Source: a virus
DNA length: 29,942 nucleotides
Direction: 5' to 3' (one strand)
Virus record (IMG/VR): IMGVR_UViG_3300042544_001320
Location: 1 to 29,942 of that record
Shown: positions 18,383 to 29,174 of the stretch, in pieces
Numbering within the stretch: the first letter of the stretch is position 1
Layout: every line of letters starts with the position of its first letter
The notes under the pieces: model-generated
The model's database searches: none
Seen by the model: only the letters and a program-made list of their open reading frames with translations
Told to the model about the DNA's origin: nothing
Made by a program: the position numbers and the translations under genes

Positions 18383-20289
18383 CAACCTTATTATTTGAGG
18401 CCGACACCCGCCCACTCAAAAGCGCAAATGACGAGCTTGTCAAGACGGAACGCGCAGGCGTGCGCGCTCAGGATGCTGCGCGCAAGATGGGGGTCGAGCT
18501 TAAAAAGGCGGCGAACGATTCCATCAACCCAATCCAGAAGGTCAGCAGCGGGATCAGCGCATTAACATCCGCGATTGTGGCGCTTGGCGGCGCGCTGGCC
18601 GCTCGGCAGTTCGCCATCTATACCGATCAATGGACTGACCTTAATTCCCGCATCATCAACGCCACAGGCAGCGCAGAAGCGGCTAATGAGGCGTTACAGT
18701 CCATCAGTCAGACGGCCAGAACAACGTATTCCAGCCTGCAACAAACCGCCGAGGCGTTTTTGCTTAACAGCATGGCGCTTAATGAGCTTGGTTACACGAC
18801 ACGGCAGCAGGTTGATCTGGCAGACGCACTTAATAATGCGCTGGTAATCTCCGGCACAAAGGGTGAGCGTGCGGCCTCGGTAATGAATGCGCTGTCAAAA
18901 GCGATGGCACTTGGCACGCTGTCCGGCGATAACTTCAACACAGTTATTCAGTCAGGCGGCAGAGTTGTGCAGGCGCTGGCTGATGGGCTGGGCGTGACCA
19001 CCACAGAACTGCGCGCAATGGCTTCAGAAGGGCTGCTGACCACCGAGGCTATCATCACATCAATGACAAGCCAGATGCAGATACTGCGGACAGAAGCAGA
19101 AGAAATGCCTGCAACGATTGGTGACGCGATGGTGCAGTTTGGCAACTTTGCGCTTGAGGCTGTTGGGCGCATGGATCAGGCTGCCGGATTATCTGCGTCA
19201 ATTGCGGATGCCATTATCCGATCACTGTCCGGATGGCGGTCAGTCTACATGCAGACCGAGCAGCAGAAGTTCAACGAATTACTGGCAGAGCGTGTTGTGC
19301 TTGAGGATCGTATTGCAAGCCGGGCAATCGCGGCAGGCAGCACAGCAGGCATTGCGGCGAGAAACAGGATTGCGGCAATCAATGAAGAGTTGATGGCGCT
19401 GTCAGATGCGAACGTAGCGCGGCAGAAAGCCGAATCAGAAGCTTACGCAGCAGGCGTTAAGCTGCGTAACGATCAGGAAGCGCAGCGCGCAGCAGACCAC
19501 CAGAGCGAGCTAAACCGAATATCGGCAGAGTCAGCGGCAAGGATTGCAGCGCGGCAGGCCGAGATTGCACAGACGCAGATCGAGCGCGCCCGGAGTGGCA
19601 AACCAGGCGGCGGCAAGATAAAAAGCCTTGCAGAAGCCGAGCGCGAACAACAGCAAGAACGCTTTGCTGAATTACTGCTGTGGAAGCAGGCAGAAGAGCG
19701 CCTTGATAATCGCGCAGCAGACGCAAGGCTGGAGCGCCAGCAGCAACAAACCACACAACTGTTGGCCTTTGAGGATGTGCTGCTGCGTGGTAAAAACTCC
19801 GCACTTGCCGAAGCGTATCGAATCGGTGTCAATTACGCTGACAAAGAAAAGCGTGAGACTGCCGCAAAGATTATCTCGGATAGTTACGCGGCTGCGATGG
19901 GCGCTTACCGTGCGCTATCCAGCATACCGCTTGTCGGCCCTGCTTTGGGCGCGGCTGCTGCTGGTGGCATTCTGGCTGCTGGCGTGTCCTACTCTGCCAA
20001 GTCGCTTGCAGGGCGTGCGCTGGGCGGTCAGGTGCGAGGCGGTGAGTCGTATGTCGTGGGTGAGCGCGGTCCAGAAGTTTTAACAATGGGTTCATCCAAC
20101 GGCAAGATCATCCCCAACTCTGCACTAAAACAAGTGCCAGCGGCCAGTAATGTGACCAACACAGCAAATGTAACCTTTAGTATCACTGCCAACGATACAC
20201 GAGGCTTTGATGAGCTGCTATTGAAGCGGCGCGGCATGATTGCCAGTCTGGTGCAGTCATCACTTAACAATCTGGGGCGCAGTATATGA
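18367..20289 (+). CDS. Tape measure protein
   Basis: A 640-residue protein that sets tail length. The N-terminus (EVATLLFEADTRPLKSANDE) and the conserved tape-measure domain near 75-260 (LNSRIINATGSAEAANEALQ, GDNFNTVIQSGGRVVQALA) are clear. The middle is long, alpha-helical and rich in Ala, Gln, Glu and Arg (about 300-500). A hydrophobic, glycine-alanine rich stretch near 515-550 (LVGPALGAAAAGGILAAGVS) could enter the host membrane during DNA delivery. The C-terminus has GGQVRGGESYVVGERGPEVL, widespread in these proteins. By about 0.15 nm per residue, tail length would be near 95 nm. Confidence 0.92.
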   Translation: MATEVATLLFEADTRPLKSANDELVKTERAGVRAQDAARKMGVELKKAANDSINPIQKVSSGISALTSAIVALGGALAARQFAIYTDQWTDLNSRIINATGSAEAANEALQSISQTARTTYSSLQQTAEAFLLNSMALNELGYTTRQQVDLADALNNALVISGTKGERAASVMNALSKAMALGTLSGDNFNTVIQSGGRVVQALADGLGVTTTELRAMASEGLLTTEAIITSMTSQMQILRTEAEEMPATIGDAMVQFGNFALEAVGRMDQAAGLSASIADAIIRSLSGWRSVYMQTEQQKFNELLAERVVLEDRIASRAIAAGSTAGIAARNRIAAINEELMALSDANVARQKAESEAYAAGVKLRNDQEAQRAADHQSELNRISAESAARIAARQAEIAQTQIERARSGKPGGGKIKSLAEAEREQQQERFAELLLWKQAEERLDNRAADARLERQQQQTTQLLAFEDVLLRGKNSALAEAYRIGVNYADKEKRETAAKIISDSYAAAMGAYRALSSIPLVGPALGAAAAGGILAAGVSYSAKSLAGRALGGQVRGGESYVVGERGPEVLTMGSSNGKIIPNSALKQVPAASNVTNTANVTFSITANDTRGFDELLLKRRGMIASLVQSSLNNLGRSI

Positions 20290-20864
20290 GCGGCACTTAT
20301 CCGGCATCACCAGAAGCATCGCGGGTCAATATCACCTCGCTGAATCTCAACCTGATGTCCGAGTCACTATCCGGCAGACGACAGGTGCGCGGCATCGGCT
20401 CGCAGCGATGGGCTATCACTGCATCCTACAACCCAATGACGCGGGCAGAGTTTGCGCCTGTTTACTCGTTTGTCATTAAGCAACGGGGACAGTTTGAATC
20501 ATTCCAGTTTGTGCCGCCGGTTGTGGCTGTGCAATCCGGTGACGCAAGCGGGTCAAAGACCGTCAACGGTGCGCTCAGTATTGGCGCAACAACGATGAAC
20601 TTGCATGGCGGCTCAGGCACGCTAAAGGCGGGTGACTTTTTCAAGTTTGCCAATCACTCCAAAGTGTACATGTTCACGGCTGATCGAAACGGTAATGGTA
20701 ACGTGACATTTGAACCCCCGTTGATTGCGCCTGTGGCAAACAACGAGGGGCTTGTGATTACCAATGTGCCCTTCACTGTGCGCCTGAATAACGATGTTCA
20801 GCAATACAGCCTGACCGGATATGAGCGATACGTGTATGAGGTCGACATGGTGGAGGCAATATGA
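20286..20864 (+). CDS. Distal-tail-like minor tail protein
   Basis: A 192-residue protein directly after the tape measure (ATGA overlap), the place of the distal tail protein. It opens with SRVNITSLNLNLMSESLSGR and RWAITASYNPMTRAEFAPVY, strands and a helix typical of tail-tip proteins. Residues about 92-161 form a small beta insertion (LSIGATTMNLHGGS, LKAGDFFKFA, VTFEPPLIAPVANNEGLVIT) that resembles the insertion in this phage's own capsid protein. It ends in YERYVYEVDMVEAI. Function is inferred from place and fold. Confidence 0.65.
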   Translation: MSGTYPASPEASRVNITSLNLNLMSESLSGRRQVRGIGSQRWAITASYNPMTRAEFAPVYSFVIKQRGQFESFQFVPPVVAVQSGDASGSKTVNGALSIGATTMNLHGGSGTLKAGDFFKFANHSKVYMFTADRNGNGNVTFEPPLIAPVANNEGLVITNVPFTVRLNNDVQQYSLTGYERYVYEVDMVEAI

Positions 20865-21415
20865 CCCGCGCCATTGATGCCGCCACTATCACGGCACTCC
20901 AATCAGACTCGTTTAACATGGCGCATCTGATACAGTTGGATTTTGCCTCTGTTGTCAGGCTGACCGATTGGGGCAGAAACATCACTGCGCTTTCAAACAC
21001 CTTCCTGAGTTCACCGCACCTTGTTGGCATTGGCGACTCGTCCGAATCAACCGACATTCGCGTCAATTCCATTGACCTTGTTATGTCGGGCGTTGAGCAG
21101 ACTTTCATTGCGTTGTTTCTGACCAACAACTACATGGATGTACGAGCAAGAATCTGGAAAGCTGTTTTAGGAGCCAATGACGCTGTTATCGGCGCTCCGT
21201 TCGTTGTGTTTGACGGACGTATCAGCAGCTACAGCATTAGTGATGACACCGGTACAAGTGAGATCAGTATCGAAATGTCATCGCATTGGAAAGACTTTGA
21301 GTTGAGCAAAGGTCGGCGCACAAACAGAAACAGTCAACAGTATTACTTCCCAGCGGATAAGGGCTTAGACTTCTCCGGCGTTATCGTAAGAAACCTGAAA
21401 TGGGGCAAAGGCTAA
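20861..21415 (+). CDS. Tail-tip minor protein
   Basis: A 184-residue protein overlapping both neighbours (ATGA in front; TAATG behind). Strands such as MAHLIQLDFASVVRLTDWG, STDIRVNSIDLVMSGVEQ and AVIGAPFVVFDGRISSYSIS, with a closing SIEMSSHWKDFELSKGRR, resemble phage tail-tip/hub proteins (DUF2163-like region), which sit between distal tail protein and the J-like tip. Near the end, NSQQYYFPADKGLDF is usual in such proteins. The exact role is unsure. Confidence 0.6.
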   Translation: MTRAIDAATITALQSDSFNMAHLIQLDFASVVRLTDWGRNITALSNTFLSSPHLVGIGDSSESTDIRVNSIDLVMSGVEQTFIALFLTNNYMDVRARIWKAVLGANDAVIGAPFVVFDGRISSYSISDDTGTSEISIEMSSHWKDFELSKGRRTNRNSQQYYFPADKGLDFSGVIVRNLKWGKG

Positions 21416-24400
21416 TGGCGCTTCCAGTATTACCAGCAGCGGCAACAGTAGCGGGGCAGGCAGGCGTTGCGGGGGCATCGGCAACAGCAGGATCAACACT
21501 CGCTGCGGCTCTTGGGCCAATAGGGCTTGGTGCGGCTCTGTTGAGCGCGGGCATCTCTTACTTTTCGCAGCGTAAGGCCAAAAAGAAAGCAAAAAAAGCA
21601 GCAAGGGCTGCGCTCGGTGAACTGCTCAACTTTGACGGGACAAACAACTTTATTCCTGTTGTCTACGGCGTGCGTCGAATTGAGGGCACGCTGGTTTATA
21701 TCAGCACCAATGATGCGCCTGGCGGTGATCCCAATGAGTTTTTGTATCTGGTCTACGCATTGTGCGAGGGCGAGGTTGAGCAGATATTAGAGGCAGACGT
21801 TCTGATTGATGGTCTGCCGGTGACTGATGCGCGGTTTGATTACACCGACTCCATCAACATAGCGATATACGGCGGAACAGACGCACAAGCAGCCGACACA
21901 ATGCTGATCAATGAGACGGCAGACTGGACGACTGACCACAAGTTGAGCGGCATTGCTTATATTCGTGTGCGCCTGAAGTGGGACAGAAAAGCGTTTAACA
22001 ATATTCCCGTAGTATCTGCGCTGGTTTACGGCAAGAAGGTCTACGACCCACGCACAGCCACAACTGCTTATTCCACAAACCCTGCGCTGTGCATCCGCGA
22101 CTATCTGACCAACACACGATACGGCAAAGGGCTTGCAGCGGGGCTGATCGATGACACCGCAATCGGTGCGGCCGCTACCTTCTACGATACAACTGTTACC
22201 TTCTGGACAGGCGGCGATACCGGCAAGGTGTTTGAGTTCAATGCCATCGTGGACACCGAGCAGTCAATCCTTGATAACCTCAAAGACATGATGCTCTGCT
22301 GTCGTGGCTTTATGCCGTACACAAACGGGATTTATTCACTGATACCCGACAAATCAGCGTCGAGCGTGTTCGCATTTACCACTGACAACATCATCAGCGG
22401 CATTTCCATCAGAGGCGAAAACAAGGCCGACAAATATAACCGCATGGTCTGTACGTTTACCGATCCGGCGAACAACTGGCAGGAAAACACGGTTATCTGG
22501 CCGGAGGCTGGCTCTGCCGAGGAGTTCGCATATCTGGCAGAGGACAACGGCACAGAACTGGTAGGCGAGATTGATCTGCCGTACATAACTAACTTTTACG
22601 CTGCGCGTGATCTCGCGAGAGTATTCCTGCTGCGCTCACGTAATGCTATTCGGACATCGTTTAACGCAAACAGCGATGCGCTCAACGTGTCTGTGGGCGA
22701 TGTAGTTACAGTGACGCACCCAACACCGGCATGGAGCGCAAAGCCGTTTCAAGTCGAAGAGGTGGCGATCAACTACGATGGCACATGCACCGTTTCGCTG
22801 ATTGAGTACGACAGTTCCATTTACAGTTACGATCCGGCATCTGAGCAAGTGGCCTATGCTGATACAGATCTGCCCAACCCGTTTGCAGTAGGCGCTCCGA
22901 CCAGCTTTGTGGCTACCGAGTCAACTTTGCTGAGTGAAGATGGCTCGGTGGTGCGCGAGATCACAATCTCATGGACGGCATCAACAGATGCGTTTGTTGA
23001 GAGATACGAGCTACAGTTCAAGCGGTCATCTGCAAGTGTTTATTTCTCAGTGTTCACTGAGCAACCACGATACATCACTACCTACGGCGATGTGGGCGAA
23101 GTTTACGACTACCGCATCAGGTCTATCAACTCCCTGGGCGTTGTCAGCGACTGGCTGACCGGCACTTATACAACGGTGGGCGACACCACCGCTCCTGCAA
23201 TCCCCACAGGCGTAACAATCAGCGGCGACTATAACCAAGTTACAGCCACATGGTCAGCAGCGACTGAGCGTGATTATAAAGAGTCGTGGGTTTACCAGAA
23301 CACTACTGGCACAACGCCATCAACGGGCGATGCGCCGTTTCGCAGGGTCACTGGCAACTCCGTCACGGTGGCGGGGCTTGCGGTGAGCACCACGTATTAT
23401 GTCTGGGTTCGCAATGTGGACTTCAGCGGTAATGCTTCTGGCTTCAGTTCTGCGGGGACGTTTACAACTACGGCGGGGGCGTCTATTGCTGACGGCTCGG
23501 TAACAACAGCAAAGATTGTAGACTCTGCTGTGGTGGCTGCAAAGATCGGCACAAGCGCAGTGACAGAGGACAAGATCAGCGCGCTGGCTGTAACGGCTGC
23601 AAAGGTGGCGGCTGGAGCGATTGAAACGGCAAAGATTGCTGACCAAGCTGTCGCAAGCGGCAAAATCGCCGCGCTTGCGGTCACGGGCGATAAGATTGCC
23701 GCTAACGCAATAACCGAAACAAAAATAACCGATTCCGCTATATCAACACCCAAGCTTGCAGCGGGCGCGGTAACGGCGTCAAAAATCGCTGCTGGCACGA
23801 TTACAGCCAATGAGATTGCGGCCAACACGATCACAGGTGCAAAAATAGCAGCCGGAACCATTACAGCCGGAAACATTGCTGCGCTGACTATCACGGCGAA
23901 CGAAATAGCAGCCAACGCTATCACGGCAGGCAAGATACTTGCAGGCGAGATAACCGGCGACAAAATCAGCGCCACGTTTACCACGACCAGCAACCTTGTG
24001 TTGACTACGGCTGGCAAGCTCTACACCTTCGGCAAGACCTCCGCAGCCAGCACAACAGCCGGTGTATTCCTTGGACATGACGGCGGGTCAAATTACGACT
24101 TTGCCGTGGGAGATAGCACAAAGTCTATCGTATGGGATGGGTCGGCCAGCACGTTTACGATCACCAATGTAAACTTGTCAACAAACGGACAATTAATATC
24201 AACCGGCAGCGCGGCATCGGCAGGCGGTAATGGCGCTGTTGTTGGCGCTCCGACAAATACCGGTGTTTTTGGGGTGGTCGGCGTGGCGACAAGTGGACAC
24301 ACAGTTCCGGCGCTCGGTGGCTATTCAGCGTCAACCAATACCGCAGCGGTTGGTGTGCTTGGGCAGACGACAGTCAACGGCGTTGCGGCGATTGAAGGGC

Positions 24401-24693
24401 TTGCTGGCGGCGGCGATTCGGGCGGCGTTGCTGCTAAACTATTTGGGAATATCGTTGTTGGCGGAGCAACCAACACCGGCATATTTAATCTTGTACTGAA
24501 AGAAGGCACTGCCGGCAGCCGACTGGATAATCAAATGCAGATTTATGGTGCGCTATCATCAGGCTCTGATACAACGCTTGGGCTAGTGACTGAGCAGGGC
24601 GTGGTTACGGGAACTGGCGCATTTGCTGGCATCTTGCAAATCAGAATAGTATGGAACGGGGCAGAATACTGGCTCCCACTACAGGCGGTGTGA
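21415..24693 (+). CDS. J-like tail tip attachment protein with fibronectin III domains and decapeptide repeats
   Basis: A 1092-residue protein. The ATG at 21415 follows GGGGCAAAGG and overlaps the previous stop; an in-frame ATG at 21400 is inside the previous gene. The first 60 residues hold a hydrophobic segment and a basic cluster (RKAKKKAKKAARAALG). Residues about 65-480 are the J/tail-tip core (NFIPVVYGVRRIEGTLVYIS, VSALVYGKKVYDPRT). Two fibronectin III domains follow near 491-588 and 595-690. Residues 695-853 are 16 units of ten residues with pattern (A/T)(V/I)T..KIA.., forming a stalk. The last 240 residues hold glycine-rich beta repeats (FGVVGVATS, VGVLGQTTVNG) and end at the host-facing side. 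This protein probably recognises the receptor. Confidence 0.88.
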   Translation: MALPVLPAAATVAGQAGVAGASATAGSTLAAALGPIGLGAALLSAGISYFSQRKAKKKAKKAARAALGELLNFDGTNNFIPVVYGVRRIEGTLVYISTNDAPGGDPNEFLYLVYALCEGEVEQILEADVLIDGLPVTDARFDYTDSINIAIYGGTDAQAADTMLINETADWTTDHKLSGIAYIRVRLKWDRKAFNNIPVVSALVYGKKVYDPRTATTAYSTNPALCIRDYLTNTRYGKGLAAGLIDDTAIGAAATFYDTTVTFWTGGDTGKVFEFNAIVDTEQSILDNLKDMMLCCRGFMPYTNGIYSLIPDKSASSVFAFTTDNIISGISIRGENKADKYNRMVCTFTDPANNWQENTVIWPEAGSAEEFAYLAEDNGTELVGEIDLPYITNFYAARDLARVFLLRSRNAIRTSFNANSDALNVSVGDVVTVTHPTPAWSAKPFQVEEVAINYDGTCTVSLIEYDSSIYSYDPASEQVAYADTDLPNPFAVGAPTSFVATESTLLSEDGSVVREITISWTASTDAFVERYELQFKRSSASVYFSVFTEQPRYITTYGDVGEVYDYRIRSINSLGVVSDWLTGTYTTVGDTTAPAIPTGVTISGDYNQVTATWSAATERDYKESWVYQNTTGTTPSTGDAPFRRVTGNSVTVAGLAVSTTYYVWVRNVDFSGNASGFSSAGTFTTTAGASIADGSVTTAKIVDSAVVAAKIGTSAVTEDKISALAVTAAKVAAGAIETAKIADQAVASGKIAALAVTGDKIAANAITETKITDSAISTPKLAAGAVTASKIAAGTITANEIAANTITGAKIAAGTITAGNIAALTITANEIAANAITAGKILAGEITGDKISATFTTTSNLVLTTAGKLYTFGKTSAASTTAGVFLGHDGGSNYDFAVGDSTKSIVWDGSASTFTITNVNLSTNGQLISTGSAASAGGNGAVVGAPTNTGVFGVVGVATSGHTVPALGGYSASTNTAAVGVLGQTTVNGVAAIEGLAGGGDSGGVAAKLFGNIVVGGATNTGIFNLVLKEGTAGSRLDNQMQIYGALSSGSDTTLGLVTEQGVVTGTGAFAGILQIRIVWNGAEYWLPLQAV
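23497..23973 (+). repeat. Sixteen tandem decapeptide-coding repeats in the J-like gene
   Basis: Sixteen units of about 30 bases code for variants of AVTAAKIAAG and TITANEIAAN. The nucleotide copies are diverged, but the protein period of ten is strict. The opposite strand also stays open here because of the repeat composition. Confidence 0.85.
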
Positions 24694-24929: not shown

Positions 24930-25124
24930 ATGACCAACCACCAAGCCCAAAAAATCAGCGATCTCCTGCGCGCACAGCTTGAGGAAAATCTACACAACAG
25001 GCTGACTCAGGCGTGTGCAACCGGCATTCTGACTCTGTTCAATAAAGAGCTTGAGGCAATGGTTAGCGTGGACGCGGCGAGCGTGGTAAAATCCGCTGAA
25101 CAAGCACCGGAGCCATCCCCATGA
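24930..25124 (+). CDS. Small hypothetical helical protein
   Basis: A 64-residue, mainly helical protein (AQKISDLLRAQLEENLHNRL, then LTLFNKELEAMVSVD) with an Ala/Pro tail. It starts one base after the previous stop and overlaps the next start by ATGA. No family known to me. The helices suggest a chaperone or oligomerisation role, without proof. Confidence 0.55.
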   Translation: MTNHQAQKISDLLRAQLEENLHNRLTQACATGILTLFNKELEAMVSVDAASVVKSAEQAPEPSP

Positions 25125-25459
25125 ACTGCGACATGATCTATTTGGTCAAAGACGACAACGGCTCGCAAGTTGAGTGCATCATCACCCGCGAGAATACGGG
25201 CGAACCTGTCAATCTAACCGGCGCAACTGCTCGCTTAAAGTTCCGCAAAAAACGCACAACTACAGTGCTGTTCACGCTGACGAACATTACGATTGCGCCA
25301 GCGGATTTACCAGCCGGTCAGGCGCTGTTTCAATTCTCTGCCGCGAATCTTGATCTTGCTGCTGGGCTGTACGAAGGCGAGGTTGAGGTAACATTTCCCA
25401 ACAGCAGTATTGAGACAATATACGAAATTATCGACTTCCAGGTGCGGGATGATTTCTGA
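25121..25459 (+). CDS. BppU-N-like beta-sandwich tail protein
   Basis: A 112-residue protein made of beta strands: MIYLVKDDNGSQVECIITRE, GEPVNLTGATARLKFRKK, GQALFQFSAANLDLAAGLYE and GEVEVTFPNSSIETIYEI. The pattern (P-V-N-L-T-G-A then ..Y.GEVEV) is that of the N-terminal domain of baseplate upper proteins, a small domain used to attach fibres or receptor-binding proteins. Here it stands alone as a gene between the tip and fibre genes. Confidence 0.65.
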   Translation: MNCDMIYLVKDDNGSQVECIITRENTGEPVNLTGATARLKFRKKRTTTVLFTLTNITIAPADLPAGQALFQFSAANLDLAAGLYEGEVEVTFPNSSIETIYEIIDFQVRDDF

Positions 25460-26298
25460 TGAACCGCCTTACGGTCATATCTAGGGCAATAAAGGCAACT
25501 GCCAGCTCTGGGCGATTAGCGTTCAAATCCATCCAGAGCGGATTTTTCCTCATCGCCTCTTTGATAGAAAAAATACTTGATGACTCCCTGACTATTACCG
25601 AGGCGATCCAGATCCTGTTTACAAAAGGGTTTCAGGAAGATGTCGGCGCAAGTGATACGCAAGGCAAGGATGTAATAAAGCCGGCCTCAGATGCGTCAGC
25701 AGCCTCTGATAGCAATGCTAAAACTGTCGGCAAATCAATCTCTGATAGTTACGCGGCAACTGATTTTATTGCGCTTGTGCTTAGTGCAAACAGATCGTTT
25801 TCGGACTCTTCGTCAACGACTGACTTGCAAGCACTGTTTGCATCCAAGTCGATTAATGACGCCGTGGGAGTGTCGGACGCTGCAATAATCAGCTTCGTCA
25901 GGCTCTCCTCGTTTTCCGACAGCGTGGAGGTTGTTGAAACCGTTGCTGTGTCTGCAAGCCCTTCGGCTGCCGACAGTGGATCAGTTGGCGACTCAATTAG
26001 CCTTGTGGTGCAATACCATAGGGCGGTTGGCGATCTTGCCGGCACAACCGATGCAGTTATTTTCAGTGCCTCTAAAGCTATTTCGGATGCCTCTGCGGTT
26101 TCGGATATTGCGGCAATGCTTGTTGACAGGCCGGCAATAGATGCAGGATCGGTCGCTGACACTATTGCTAAATCAACAGGGCTTGCCAAAAATGATATAA
26201 TCGGCACTGCTGATGCTGGATACCTATTGAACCAGGATTACGTAAGCGATCCTACTTATTTTGCCGATGATTATGTTGGCGCAAAACGAACATTTTGA
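25459..26298 (+). CDS. Tail-associated repeat protein (18/20-residue repeats)
   Basis: A 279-residue protein. The first 60 residues include a hydrophobic stretch (SGFFLIASLIEKIL). From 77 to 262 it consists of units beginning (S/N/A/G)D....(S/T)D, at 77, 95, 115, 133, 153, 171, 191, 209, 227 and 245. The spacing is 18, 20, 18, 20, 18, 20, 18, 18, 18. Most units carry Asp at position 2 and near 8 and many small residues. It ends in YVSDPTYFADDYVGAKRTF, a phrase I associate with phage tail proteins. It could be an elongated virion stalk or decoration; no enzymatic motif is seen. Confidence 0.65.
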   Translation: MNRLTVISRAIKATASSGRLAFKSIQSGFFLIASLIEKILDDSLTITEAIQILFTKGFQEDVGASDTQGKDVIKPASDASAASDSNAKTVGKSISDSYAATDFIALVLSANRSFSDSSSTTDLQALFASKSINDAVGVSDAAIISFVRLSSFSDSVEVVETVAVSASPSAADSGSVGDSISLVVQYHRAVGDLAGTTDAVIFSASKAISDASAVSDIAAMLVDRPAIDAGSVADTIAKSTGLAKNDIIGTADAGYLLNQDYVSDPTYFADDYVGAKRTF

Positions 26299-26307
26299 GG
26301 TGTAATT

Positions 26308-26757
26308 ATGCTTAAAAGTAAACTTTCCGTTAGCGGTCGCCTGAGCGTAGTTTTGCTCGATAATCAAGGCAATGTCAAAACATCAAGGAATCACGAAAAC
26401 CTTGTTGTCAGTGCTGGGCTTGCCTATATTGCCAGCCGCATGAGGGATGCTTCTGCCACTGCTATGACGCACATGGCTGTCGGCTCCGGCACAACTGCTG
26501 CCGCTGCTGGTGATACCGCATTACAGACGCAGATAGGCAGCAGGGTGACACTAACATCAACGACTGCCAGCGCAAACACTGTAGTTTATGTCGCCACGTT
26601 TGCGCCCGGCACTGGAACTGGCGCGATTACCGAAGCCGGCATCTTTAACGCCTCAACCGCTGGCACGATGGCGTGCAGAACAGTGTTCCCTGTTGTAAAC
26701 AAGGCCGCTGGGGATACGCTGCAAATCACCTGGACTATCACACTTAACGCTGCTTAA
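26308..26757 (+). CDS. Tail-fibre-associated protein
   Basis: A 149-residue protein of the type found near phage fibre genes. Recognisable text includes NHENLVVSAGLAYIASRM and MTHMAVGSGTTAAAAGD, then alternating Thr/Ala-rich strands and a last strand QITWTITLNAA. Such proteins are small, beta-rich structural parts. The region before the gene has GAGGT. Exact function unknown. Confidence 0.6.
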   Translation: MLKSKLSVSGRLSVVLLDNQGNVKTSRNHENLVVSAGLAYIASRMRDASATAMTHMAVGSGTTAAAAGDTALQTQIGSRVTLTSTTASANTVVYVATFAPGTGTGAITEAGIFNASTAGTMACRTVFPVVNKAAGDTLQITWTITLNAA

Positions 26758-26774: not shown

Positions 26775-29174
26775 ATGGCTACAATAGTAACAAGGGCTGG
26801 CAAAGGCTCGCCGCTTACGAATAATGAAGTTGATGCTAATTTTACCGGCTTAAATTCAGAGCTTTCTACTATGTCCCGCGCCATCTCCGTGCAGATGACG
26901 GCATCAGCAACGGTGGGCGGGATACAGCAGCTTGATAACGACAATCTGGACATGGGGACGAATGATTTTACTCTTGAGTTCGATGAAGTCATCCCGACTA
27001 CGCGCCCGTCTGCCGACATAGTGCTGGATCGCAAGCACGATGGCACGAATGGTTACATTCTGACGCTGAGAACCACCGGCATTGTTCGATTGCAGATTAA
27101 CGCAACCACGTATGATTCAACCGCGCCCTTGGCTTCGGCTACAAACGTCAATCCAAAACTTTATATTCAAGTTATCCGCGAGACTGCGACTGTTGCGGGA
27201 TCGGTGACGCATTACAGTAACGGCGTTATTGTCGGCACTGCTGTTGCTATCTCTGCCGGCGCTCCGGTATCTGTTAACAACGCCTCTGCCCGCATCATCA
27301 GCGGCACAGCGACAACCCGCACAGCAGGCTCCCTGCAAGCCTCGCGCCTATTCAACCGCGCTTTGACTGCTGCGGAGGTGCTGGATTATACGTACAACCT
27401 GCCTGCGCTTGAAAATAGAGGCGCAAACAACAGCAGCATTCTGAAAATACCGGCTGATTTTCCCTATACAGTTCCGTTTAATATCATCAAAACTGGCAGA
27501 GACACTGTTACCACCGACATAGATATGGCGGCGTACAAGATCACGCCATCCGTGACCTACTATCTATCCCCGACTGGTAATGATGCCAACAACGGTTTGA
27601 CAGTTGGATCGCCCAAACGGTCTATATCTGTGCTGGCTACTGCGCTTAATGCCAGCCCACCGAGCGGAGCAGATTTTGTACTGGCACCCGGCGCGTACAA
27701 CAATGCAATCGGGATAAATGGAGGGTCTTTTAATTTTAGGCTTAACATGATCTGCCCAACAGGCCGAGCGGTAATTGCTAAAACGCAATCCGCATCGTGG
27801 GGCAAAACGGGCGGCAGAACCAATATCTATCAAGCGACAGTGGCAAACCCTCCGTCAGTGGTCGACCTGACCAACACGGACGCTTACGGCATAGAAAAGC
27901 GCCTGACAATAGTCGCCAGTCTGGATTTGTGCGATACGACTCCAGACAGCATGATTTACACGGGCGGCGTATTGTACGTCAACACCTTTAACAGCCGGTC
28001 ACCTGACGCAAACATTTTGGTATTTGATAGCGTTGGCATTAACTGGAGCCAAGGCAACAACAGATCCCTGTACTTTGAAAACATAGACTTCTGGGGAGGC
28101 GAACAGCCTGCTAGAGTTGGAAACACAGGGGTCAATACAAATATGGCGTTTTTGGCTTGCTCATTTAGATACTGTGCGGGAGATGGCAACGGCTTCGAAA
28201 CCTCAAGTGCAAGCACTGCTGCAACGCTTCTAACCATCTTCAAAGATTGCGATGCGTCATACAATAACCGTGACGGGTTTGGATATCGCGGAGCGCATAG
28301 AGCGGTAGAAATAAGCTGTAAAGGGGTTTACAACGGCTGGAATAAATCATCAGGGTCTGACAACGGCAGTACTACTCATAATTCCGTAGTTAGTGTCAGA
28401 GTGAATGGAATATATCGTTACAATGATGATAGAAATGTCCACGACATAGATACAGCGCAAAGCCTTTTAGTTTGCTGCGCTGCTGGCAATCCACAAAACT
28501 CATCGACTGGTCAGTTTGATAACGCAAATTTCCTCTTCGGGAACACGTCAGGCAGCACAACAAAGGCTTGGCTGTACGCGTGTCAGTCACTTGGAGGGGC
28601 GGTTACAGATTTCGGTGTAATGACCGGATGTACTGGCAGCACGTACTTAGATAGCGGTTTTGATAGCGTGTACACAACAGGAACCGCCTTAGTAAATTAT
28701 AATTCGTTTTCGTCGTTTGGCTTTGGATTGGTCTCCGAACTCCTAGCAATCAACGCCCAATCCGACACCGGCCAGATATTCGACTCATCAGGCAACAAGA
28801 ATCACGCACTACTACCCGCATCCGGCGCAGCTGTTGTCGGTCGCCCTGTATCACAAACCCGGGAGGTACGCTGGACCAACAACTGGTCTAATACTAACGA
28901 GCTTCAGTACATTGGCGGTGTCAACCAAGCAATTCTGCCAGCTAATGCCTACATCGAATCAATCATTGCGACAGTGACGGGTTCGGGACAGCAAAATGTT
29001 AATGTCGGCAACGGCGCAGACGCTGATCGGTACGCTGTAATCGTGCCTGGATTTGATGTAAGCCTGTTAAGCCGGACAACGGACGGTGTCAACTTAAAGC
29101 TGACGGCTACACCAACATCTCTATCAACAATGACCGTTGCGTGGGTAATTCGCTACTCAATTTTGGAGGGTTAA
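26775..29174 (+). CDS. Tailspike with lectin-like domain and right-handed beta-helix
   Basis: A 799-residue protein. The first 35 residues (SPLTNNEVDANFTGLNSEL) are a virion-attachment segment found in many fibres. Residues about 40-200 look like a concanavalin/LamG lectin domain (NDFTLEFDEV, NGYILTLRTTGIVRLQI, RLFNRALTAAEV). From about 260 (YYLSPTGNDANNGLTVGSPK) to about 660 lies a pectate-lyase-like right-handed beta-helix, with ladder text such as FENIDFWGG, LACSFRYCAG and DCDASYNNRDGFGYRG. The C-terminal 100 residues are a beta-sandwich. Such spikes often cut surface polysaccharide; candidate catalytic acids cannot be picked by eye. It is a probable host-range determinant. Confidence 0.8.
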   Translation: MATIVTRAGKGSPLTNNEVDANFTGLNSELSTMSRAISVQMTASATVGGIQQLDNDNLDMGTNDFTLEFDEVIPTTRPSADIVLDRKHDGTNGYILTLRTTGIVRLQINATTYDSTAPLASATNVNPKLYIQVIRETATVAGSVTHYSNGVIVGTAVAISAGAPVSVNNASARIISGTATTRTAGSLQASRLFNRALTAAEVLDYTYNLPALENRGANNSSILKIPADFPYTVPFNIIKTGRDTVTTDIDMAAYKITPSVTYYLSPTGNDANNGLTVGSPKRSISVLATALNASPPSGADFVLAPGAYNNAIGINGGSFNFRLNMICPTGRAVIAKTQSASWGKTGGRTNIYQATVANPPSVVDLTNTDAYGIEKRLTIVASLDLCDTTPDSMIYTGGVLYVNTFNSRSPDANILVFDSVGINWSQGNNRSLYFENIDFWGGEQPARVGNTGVNTNMAFLACSFRYCAGDGNGFETSSASTAATLLTIFKDCDASYNNRDGFGYRGAHRAVEISCKGVYNGWNKSSGSDNGSTTHNSVVSVRVNGIYRYNDDRNVHDIDTAQSLLVCCAAGNPQNSSTGQFDNANFLFGNTSGSTTKAWLYACQSLGGAVTDFGVMTGCTGSTYLDSGFDSVYTTGTALVNYNSFSSFGFGLVSELLAINAQSDTGQIFDSSGNKNHALLPASGAAVVGRPVSQTREVRWTNNWSNTNELQYIGGVNQAILPANAYIESIIATVTGSGQQNVNVGNGADADRYAVIVPGFDVSLLSRTTDGVNLKLTATPTSLSTMTVAWVIRYSILEG

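Follow-up and report, generated by a model that had tools for sequence, protein, structure and literature searches.

Most of a 279-residue protein encoded in a 29,942-base stretch of viral DNA (IMG/VR record IMGVR_UViG_3300042544_001320, positions 1 to 29,942; hereafter, the window) consists of regularly spaced units of 18 or 20 residues, and the protein ends in a conserved C-terminal cap. Judged by sequence, it is a member of a large capped family for which the libraries searched offer no curated model, and its relatives are carried by many environmental phages. The reading we favor, with a probability of about 0.65, is that this protein serves a modular phage adhesion device as its stalk or connector, adjustable in length and running from a tail anchor to an exchangeable fiber. 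The initial annotation had proposed a regular stalk; the fiber-region context of the gene fits this, and the earlier interpretation as a whole is partly supported.

The repeat gene, the proposed stalk, occupies positions 25459 to 26298 on the plus strand, as do all features below, and is defined by its ORF and by family alignments. The window also carries a terminase, a DUF4055 protein, a tape-measure gene and J-type tail genes, among them a J-type tail tip protein of 1,097 aa (21400–24693; phrog_31 central tail fiber J, E=1.2e-82) and a Dit-like distal tail protein (20286–20864; phrog_1302 distal tail protein, E=1.3e-27), a possible docking site of the anchor. Overlapping the start of the repeat gene by one base is the gene for a 112-aa, BppU_N-like protein, the proposed anchor (25121–25459; phrog_1084, E=1.3e-8). 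PF10651 (BppU_N) matches this protein with E=0.0046 and the corresponding proteins at two other loci, L005 and L057, with E=0.002 and 0.12, all below the 23.1-bit cut-off. Downstream lie a 149-aa phrog_5417 protein (26308–26757; phrog_5417 E=2.1e-29, phrog_4176 tail fiber protein 2.9e-10, and PF12571 Phage_tail_fib at E=0.0078, below the curated cut-off) and a 799-aa fiber or tailspike with a LamG and a hydrolase-like region (26775–29174; Laminin_G_3 E=3.7e-7, phrog_16653 hydrolase 1.3e-38, phrog_32409 tail fiber 4.3e-32). The J-type protein has fiber repeats of its own at residues ~700–905, AxKIAAxAIT-like by eye and unlike the Asp repeat. At L057, a 292-aa protein downstream of the fiber (L057:7064-7942) contains near-identical short tandem repeats of TTGGNYAGESY and VPGNDVYTPYYNPT types.

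In lactococcal phage TP901-1, the adaptor BppU links the Dit ring to the receptor-binding protein. The window is like that system in having a small BppU_N-like gene upstream and, at 20286, a Dit-like gene; it is unlike it in that the BppU_N match falls below the curated cut-off and lies in a separate 112-aa protein, and in that the stalk is the product of a different gene, without a Pfam match, in a phage with a tail of the J type.

Three parts can be distinguished in the repeat protein. Residues 1–41 (25459–25581), the proposed attachment end, are common to L148, the closest relative among the matches listed, and show helical hydropathy periodicity (P=0.002) and a helix predicted by AlphaFold2 at residues 3–41 (block pLDDT 59–79 in the full-length run). 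The array of 12 or 13 units covers residues 42–270 (25582–26268), and the conserved cap covers residues 255–279 (26221–26295). The initial annotation had described ten units, within what correspond to residues 77–262 of this ORF, and these stand, with acidic pairs at 78/84, 96/102, 116/122, 134/140, 154/160, 172/178, 192/198, 210/216, 228/234 and 246/252 and with the nine spacings as it gave them (18, 20, 18, 20, 18, 20, 18, 18, 18). Its paired Asp holds for nine of the ten pairs, 154/160 being Asp-Glu. The array is longer than was described, since acidic pairs also occur upstream at 42/48 and 60/66 and, inside the cap, at 264/270; from residue 42 the spacings run 18, 18, 18, 20, 18, 20, 18, 20, 18, 18, 18 and, counting the pair in the cap, 18. 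The unit model places the three 20-residue units at residues 96–115 (25744–25803), 134–153 (25858–25917) and 172–191 (25972–26031).

A unit model trained on 66 family proteins, the window protein included, chains 13 units when spacings of 18, 20, 28 and 19 carry lower penalties. With one flat penalty per spacing it chains 12 units at a score of 79.4, against a shuffle maximum of 11.4, and none of 200 shuffles reaches the observed score. Model-free autocorrelation over residues 56–279 peaks at lags 18, 6, 38, 56, 36, 76, 24 and 20, and at none of these lags did any of 500 shuffles equal the observed value. Tandem Repeats Finder detected no DNA-level tandem array in the gene, where the sole direct-repeat family comprises three 23-nt copies, of which two are 65% and 74% identical to the one taken as reference. 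The window repeat is a protein-level repeat whose DNA copies have diverged.

Direct searches with the protein returned little. It matches no Pfam family to E=1, and its NCBIfam matches score no more than 20 bits, where the cut-offs are at least 650 (best E=8.9e-5, a serine-rich protein). Sequence searches of the PDB with the protein or its family gave no match at E<0.001, one of them yielding only E>=1.2. With the low-complexity filter on, tblastn found nothing for the window protein in 50,697 phage records at 1e-5, nothing for L148 among named phages, one weak place (E=3e-3) for another relative (L013), and only itself for the 177-aa slot protein of the inducible prophage CF418-P1, whose C-terminus is a variant of the cap. 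An initial locus search with the window protein as query returned no relative, and searches of the open-licence PMC literature turned up no paper whose title or abstract concerns the Asp repeat.

The initial annotation had suggested looking for the repeat in other phages, and many relatives emerged once the family was approached in IMG/VR through the neighboring phrog_5417 gene (best 80 of 589 loci) and then through the cap. Among these best 80 of 589 loci, the slot upstream of the neighbor gene holds 70 distinct proteins, the window's included, of which 50 carry the cap at the C-terminus (49 of 69 without the window's); the rest are variants (for example, with HFLNETP ends), other proteins or fragments. 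Later loci enlarged the family set to 66 proteins. In an alignment of the window protein with 30 of 45 references (A1, 31 members), Q259, Y261, F268, D271, V273 and G274 are invariant, and the cap consensus is about Q-x-Y-x(4,5)-YFaeDYVGxxRTF. The window protein also fits the family definition adopted here: [DE]x5[DE] units of 18, 20 or 28 residues, the cap, and a phrog_5417 gene next. Of 13 loci found by scanning genome contigs, L087 has a capped relative and L088 an Asp-repeat protein that lacks the cap, and the slots of the remaining 11 apparently hold other proteins; 38 further viral loci include several with the cap, and many of the weaker matches among them seem unrelated.

Cap and units are separable, because four proteins of ~1,000 residues (L227, L239, L258 and L295) carry the cap without detectable units. 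The repeat style is also wider than the capped family, because a 670-aa protein of another type (L121:69-2081) has similar KSLSDSISISES units. In four further cases (L060, L064, L071, L077) the slot before phrog_5417 is filled by a variant that is rich in 19-residue units and ends differently (HFLNETP/YYFNQTP). By eye, several family members seem to open with shorter KRLxAxV-like repeats, and the N-terminus of L033:3546-4988 has about ten 8-residue repeats, VxFxRIKS-like.

The alternation of 18 and 20 residues, a 38-residue rhythm, is common to L148 (411 aa), the closest relative by blastp among the matches listed, whose spacings run 18, 20 five times and then 18, 18, 18, 20. The wider count covers 114 further family proteins that were absent from the first set, L148 included, and that come from cap-found loci among the matches listed. 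Under the flat penalty these have 1–30 units (median 11); 106 of the 114 have at least three units, and none has three after one shuffle each. The eight with fewer than three include the four unit-less proteins named above. Their spacings are 18 (755 of 1,115), 20 (123), 19 (90), 28 (52), 24 (29), 27 (19) and rarer others. Even spacings outnumber odd ones by 975 to 140, or 220 to 140 without the 755 of 18; a strict rule of even spacings only was dropped, given the spacings of 19 and 27 residues in these relatives. Runs of 20-18-20 occur in 15 of the 114 proteins, against 5.66 expected from within-protein spacing shuffles (maximum 12 in 1,000), and adjacent 20-20 spacings are rarer than chance (3 observed, 10.3 expected). 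The 18/20 rhythm is thus common to relatives, as the cycles of L148 and the excess of 20-18-20 runs attest. The unit preceding a 20-residue unit is most often one of 18 (51) or 28 residues (38). In two slot proteins (L111, L112), spacings of 16, 18, 18 recur with a 52-residue super-period, unlike the 18/20 of the window.

The initial annotation had read the alternation as duplication of a two-unit block, a view that the comparisons do not support for this protein. The 20-residue units of the window protein are mutually no more alike (18-position BLOSUM sums 18, 23 and 6) than they are to 18-residue units (12 to 35). The alignment with L148 is gap-free over window residues 1–208 (42% identity over residues 7–56 of the N-terminal region) and then requires extra stretches of 20 and 112 residues in L148, neither a multiple of 38. 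Both lengths can be reached with whole units (112 = 2x20 + 4x18), so that the length difference between the two proteins fits whole units and would reflect whole-unit length change. Array length thus apparently changes by units.

Within the units, residue character is tied to position. Across 366 distinct 18-residue units of relatives, acidic residues occupy position 0 in 90% and position 6 in 97%, with Glu in place of Asp in ~20% of units at each place; a basic residue stands at position 14 in 82%; and positions 4, 10, 12 and 16 are hydrophobic in 58–72% (65% at 10, 72% at 12). All preferred positions (0, 4, 6, 10, 12, 14, 16) are even. The unit model selects on positions 14–17 and 0–8, so the acidic and basic preferences there are partly selected for, and only positions 10 and 12 are free of this bias. 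The 20-residue units (50 distinct) carry hydrophobic residues, often Phe or Tyr, at positions 8, 14 and 18 (80–94%) and Arg at position 16 in 74%. Relatives also have a 28-residue unit (24 distinct) whose Asp-rich loop, TDDxxGxxxxxDDQxxxFxK-like, hardly varies; neither this unit nor the TDDxxG of its loop occurs in the window protein. The 28-residue unit often sits just before a 20-residue unit, mid-protein (L013, L054, L008, L030 and others). Hydrophobic residues of the window protein favor even unit positions (43 of 117, vs 19 of 117 odd positions; Fisher P=0.0006), which suggests an extended strand. Kyte-Doolittle hydropathy power at 160–180 degrees is not raised in the window protein, perhaps because acidic residues share the hydrophobic face.

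The same composition invites another account, in which the array is an intrinsically disordered, low-complexity linker, a flexible Ser/Ala/Asp-rich tether from anchor to fiber whose spacing is the trace of old duplications. The protein has 44 Ser, 43 Ala and 29 Asp in 279 residues, AlphaFold2 pLDDT is below 50 over most of the array, and the NCBIfam matches, far below their cut-offs, are serine-rich proteins and Sdr/Clf adhesins. We nonetheless regard this account as doubtful: residue classes are position-specific in the 366 units, also at positions 10 and 12, which lie outside the model, unit spacing is tightly kept among the further proteins, and the mean hydropathy of residues 42–279 (0.519) exceeds the Uversky disorder boundary of 0.439.

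Structure prediction, which the initial annotation had named as a check on a possible beta-solenoid, gives no support to a monomeric one. AlphaFold2 on the full-length monomer reached pLDDT 44.6 with the 31 sequences of A1, and on the C-terminal 114 residues 46.1 with the window protein plus 31 hand-chosen fragments (A3, 32 sequences), blocks around the cap reaching 63–69 in the latter run. A self-sufficient solenoid is usually predicted better than pLDDT ~45. An obligate oligomer or disorder would each explain such poor monomer models; our guess is an oligomeric, probably trimeric beta-fiber rather than a self-sufficient solenoid.

Regular, short units with residues of alternating character and elongated stalks are also found in RTX beta-rolls and in the triple beta-spiral of adenovirus, a trimeric fiber shaft; unlike these, the window protein has no RTX motif and no sequence match to any solved structure. 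A calcium-binding or metal-laddered monomeric solenoid of RTX type might still be considered, in that two acidic residues recur per unit, that 18 residues equal two RTX nonapeptides, and that relatives have, in their 28-residue unit, a loop rich in Asp and Gly (TDDxxGxxxxxDDQ-like). It is very improbable, given that the window protein contains no GGxGxD, no GxGxD and no TDDxxG, that Glu so often replaces Asp at either acidic place, and that AlphaFold2 does not fold the monomer. Pentapeptide repeats and a collagen-like fiber were rejected as well (0 A(D/N)LxX and 0 runs of four or more GXX in the window protein). A more speculative proposal, tentative and possible at best, is an undescribed fiber fold: an obligate oligomer in which 18- and 20-residue units would form two alternating kinds of half-turn and Asp/Asp/Lys ladders would recur at set heights, unit number would be an evolvable ruler for the distance between fiber and tail, and the cap with phrog_5417 would be a common coupling for fiber swaps between unrelated phages.

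Gene order was assessed with the cap, not the neighbors, as the search key, which avoids circularity. Among the matches listed, 160 loci were used (80 plus the best 80 of at least 120); a complete ORF ending in the cap is present at 154 of them, and 125 different C-termini are represented. Immediately upstream, 112 of the 117 testable loci among these matches have a BppU_N-like gene, and a phrog_5417 gene lies at most 650 nt downstream in 119 of 119 (stop-to-stop frames); 106 of the 117 and 108 of the 119 are new to the first family set. Among relatives found through phrog_5417 genes, a BppU-like gene is present at 59 of 65, and a fiber N-terminus of the form LTNxExDxNFxxL follows in 42 of 61.

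Fusions indicate which end faces the tail. The L016 protein begins as a baseplate wedge (PF23786 5.7e-11, phrog_2885 3.1e-53) and ends in ten units and the cap, and in L023 three C-terminal units accompany a PF23786 match; because repeats and cap are the C-terminus of these wedge-like proteins, the N-terminal end of the repeat protein is placed at the tail. L295, the one scanned of the four capped proteins with undetectable units, is wedge-like by profile scan. T4-like baseplate wedge proteins (PF23786, phrog_2885, phrog_17744) resemble the window protein where, as in L016 and L023, they carry C-terminal repeats and the cap before a phrog_5417 gene; the window protein differs in being a stand-alone protein without the wedge domain, in a phage with a J-type tail. 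The same fusions bear on whether the protein is a helper outside the virion, for instance a chaperone in the assembly of the downstream fiber, with repeats that template or protect the nascent fiber. The position of the repeat gene between anchor-like and fiber genes would suit such a helper, which we hold to be most unlikely, since in wedge-like proteins these repeats and the cap belong to the same polypeptide chain and a widely varying unit number suits a spacer better than a chaperone.

A further link leads to phrog_384. Residues 153–276 of the window protein match positions 295–389 of its 393 (E=0.0073), without the N-terminal domain, and 10 of the 31 A1 members match it weakly (best 1.1e-6); we rejected the window protein as a full phrog_384 protein because only the C-terminal part matches. 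Full-length phrog_384 proteins occur in Achromobacter phage JWX (1.4e-121), BcepGomr (gp17; 1.6e-121) and Achromobacter phage phiAxp-1 (3.1e-131), each with a phrog_5417 gene directly after (6.4e-43, 5.5e-42 and 3.2e-44, respectively). Like the window protein, these proteins and that of Achromobacter phage vB_Ade_ART have a cap-like C-terminus before a phrog_5417 gene, and the loci of JWX, vB_Ade_ART and BcepGomr also include an annotated tail fiber. Unlike it, they begin with a long N-terminal domain and are encoded after the tape-measure gene, and the unit model finds no unit chains in the phrog_384 proteins of phiAxp-1 (orf54), JWX, vB_Ade_ART or BcepGomr. The hmmscan matches, the cap-like end and the shared phrog_5417 neighbor link the window family to the phrog_384 proteins. 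In phiAxp-1, orf54 is given as 434 aa and 49,282 Da in Table 2 (PMC4764938), and AKJ71379.1, of the same mass, is among 18 proteins detected by LC-MS/MS in Table 3, with an emPAI of 4.39 (PMC4764938). Because that 18-protein table also includes a recombinase, an endonuclease and a helicase, it does not read as a clean virion list, and orf55, the phrog_5417 protein, is absent from it (PMC4764938). As virion support for the window family, the detection of orf54 is suggestive only.

The module is found close to J-type tail genes, next to head genes on a contig stretch that lacks J, and as the C-terminal part of wedge-like proteins. Upstream of the L148 module is a J-like region, 64% identical to residues 696–937 of the window J protein, whereas L057 has no J on the locus examined and head genes adjoin its module. 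These two loci share 87% identity in phrog_5417, 90–99% in the fiber and 97% in the next gene, vs 36% for BppU and 30% for the repeat protein; because similarity jumps there, fibers appear to have been exchanged near the cap/phrog_5417 joint. Between the window and L005, the J protein, a 77-aa protein, BppU, phrog_5417 and the protein before J keep 70–90% identity, vs 43–63% for the main matching parts of the fiber and 33% for the repeat protein.

Read from gene order and fusions alone, the adhesion device we propose would be ordered as tail, anchor, rod, cap, phrog_5417 protein and fiber. The N-terminal end of the repeat protein would join the tail of the virion, directly or through the small BppU_N-like protein; the 18- and 20-residue units would build an extended rod, its length fixed by how many of them there are; the C-terminal cap would dock the phrog_5417 protein; and the latter would carry or cap the exchangeable host-binding fiber or spike.

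Stalk-like parts of adhesion modules are known; what the sequence comparisons add is a regular repeat with a shared rhythm, in a family that curated models in the libraries searched do not cover. Fiber attachment parts in uncultured phages often go unnamed, and the cap motif together with the recurrent gene trio, which accompanies tails of several kinds, would guide annotators to adhesion modules and to fiber genes that have no recognizable domain. The cap and phrog_5417 are the likely joint of fiber exchange, and, if the array is a ruler, the reach of a fiber could be read from sequence by counting units.
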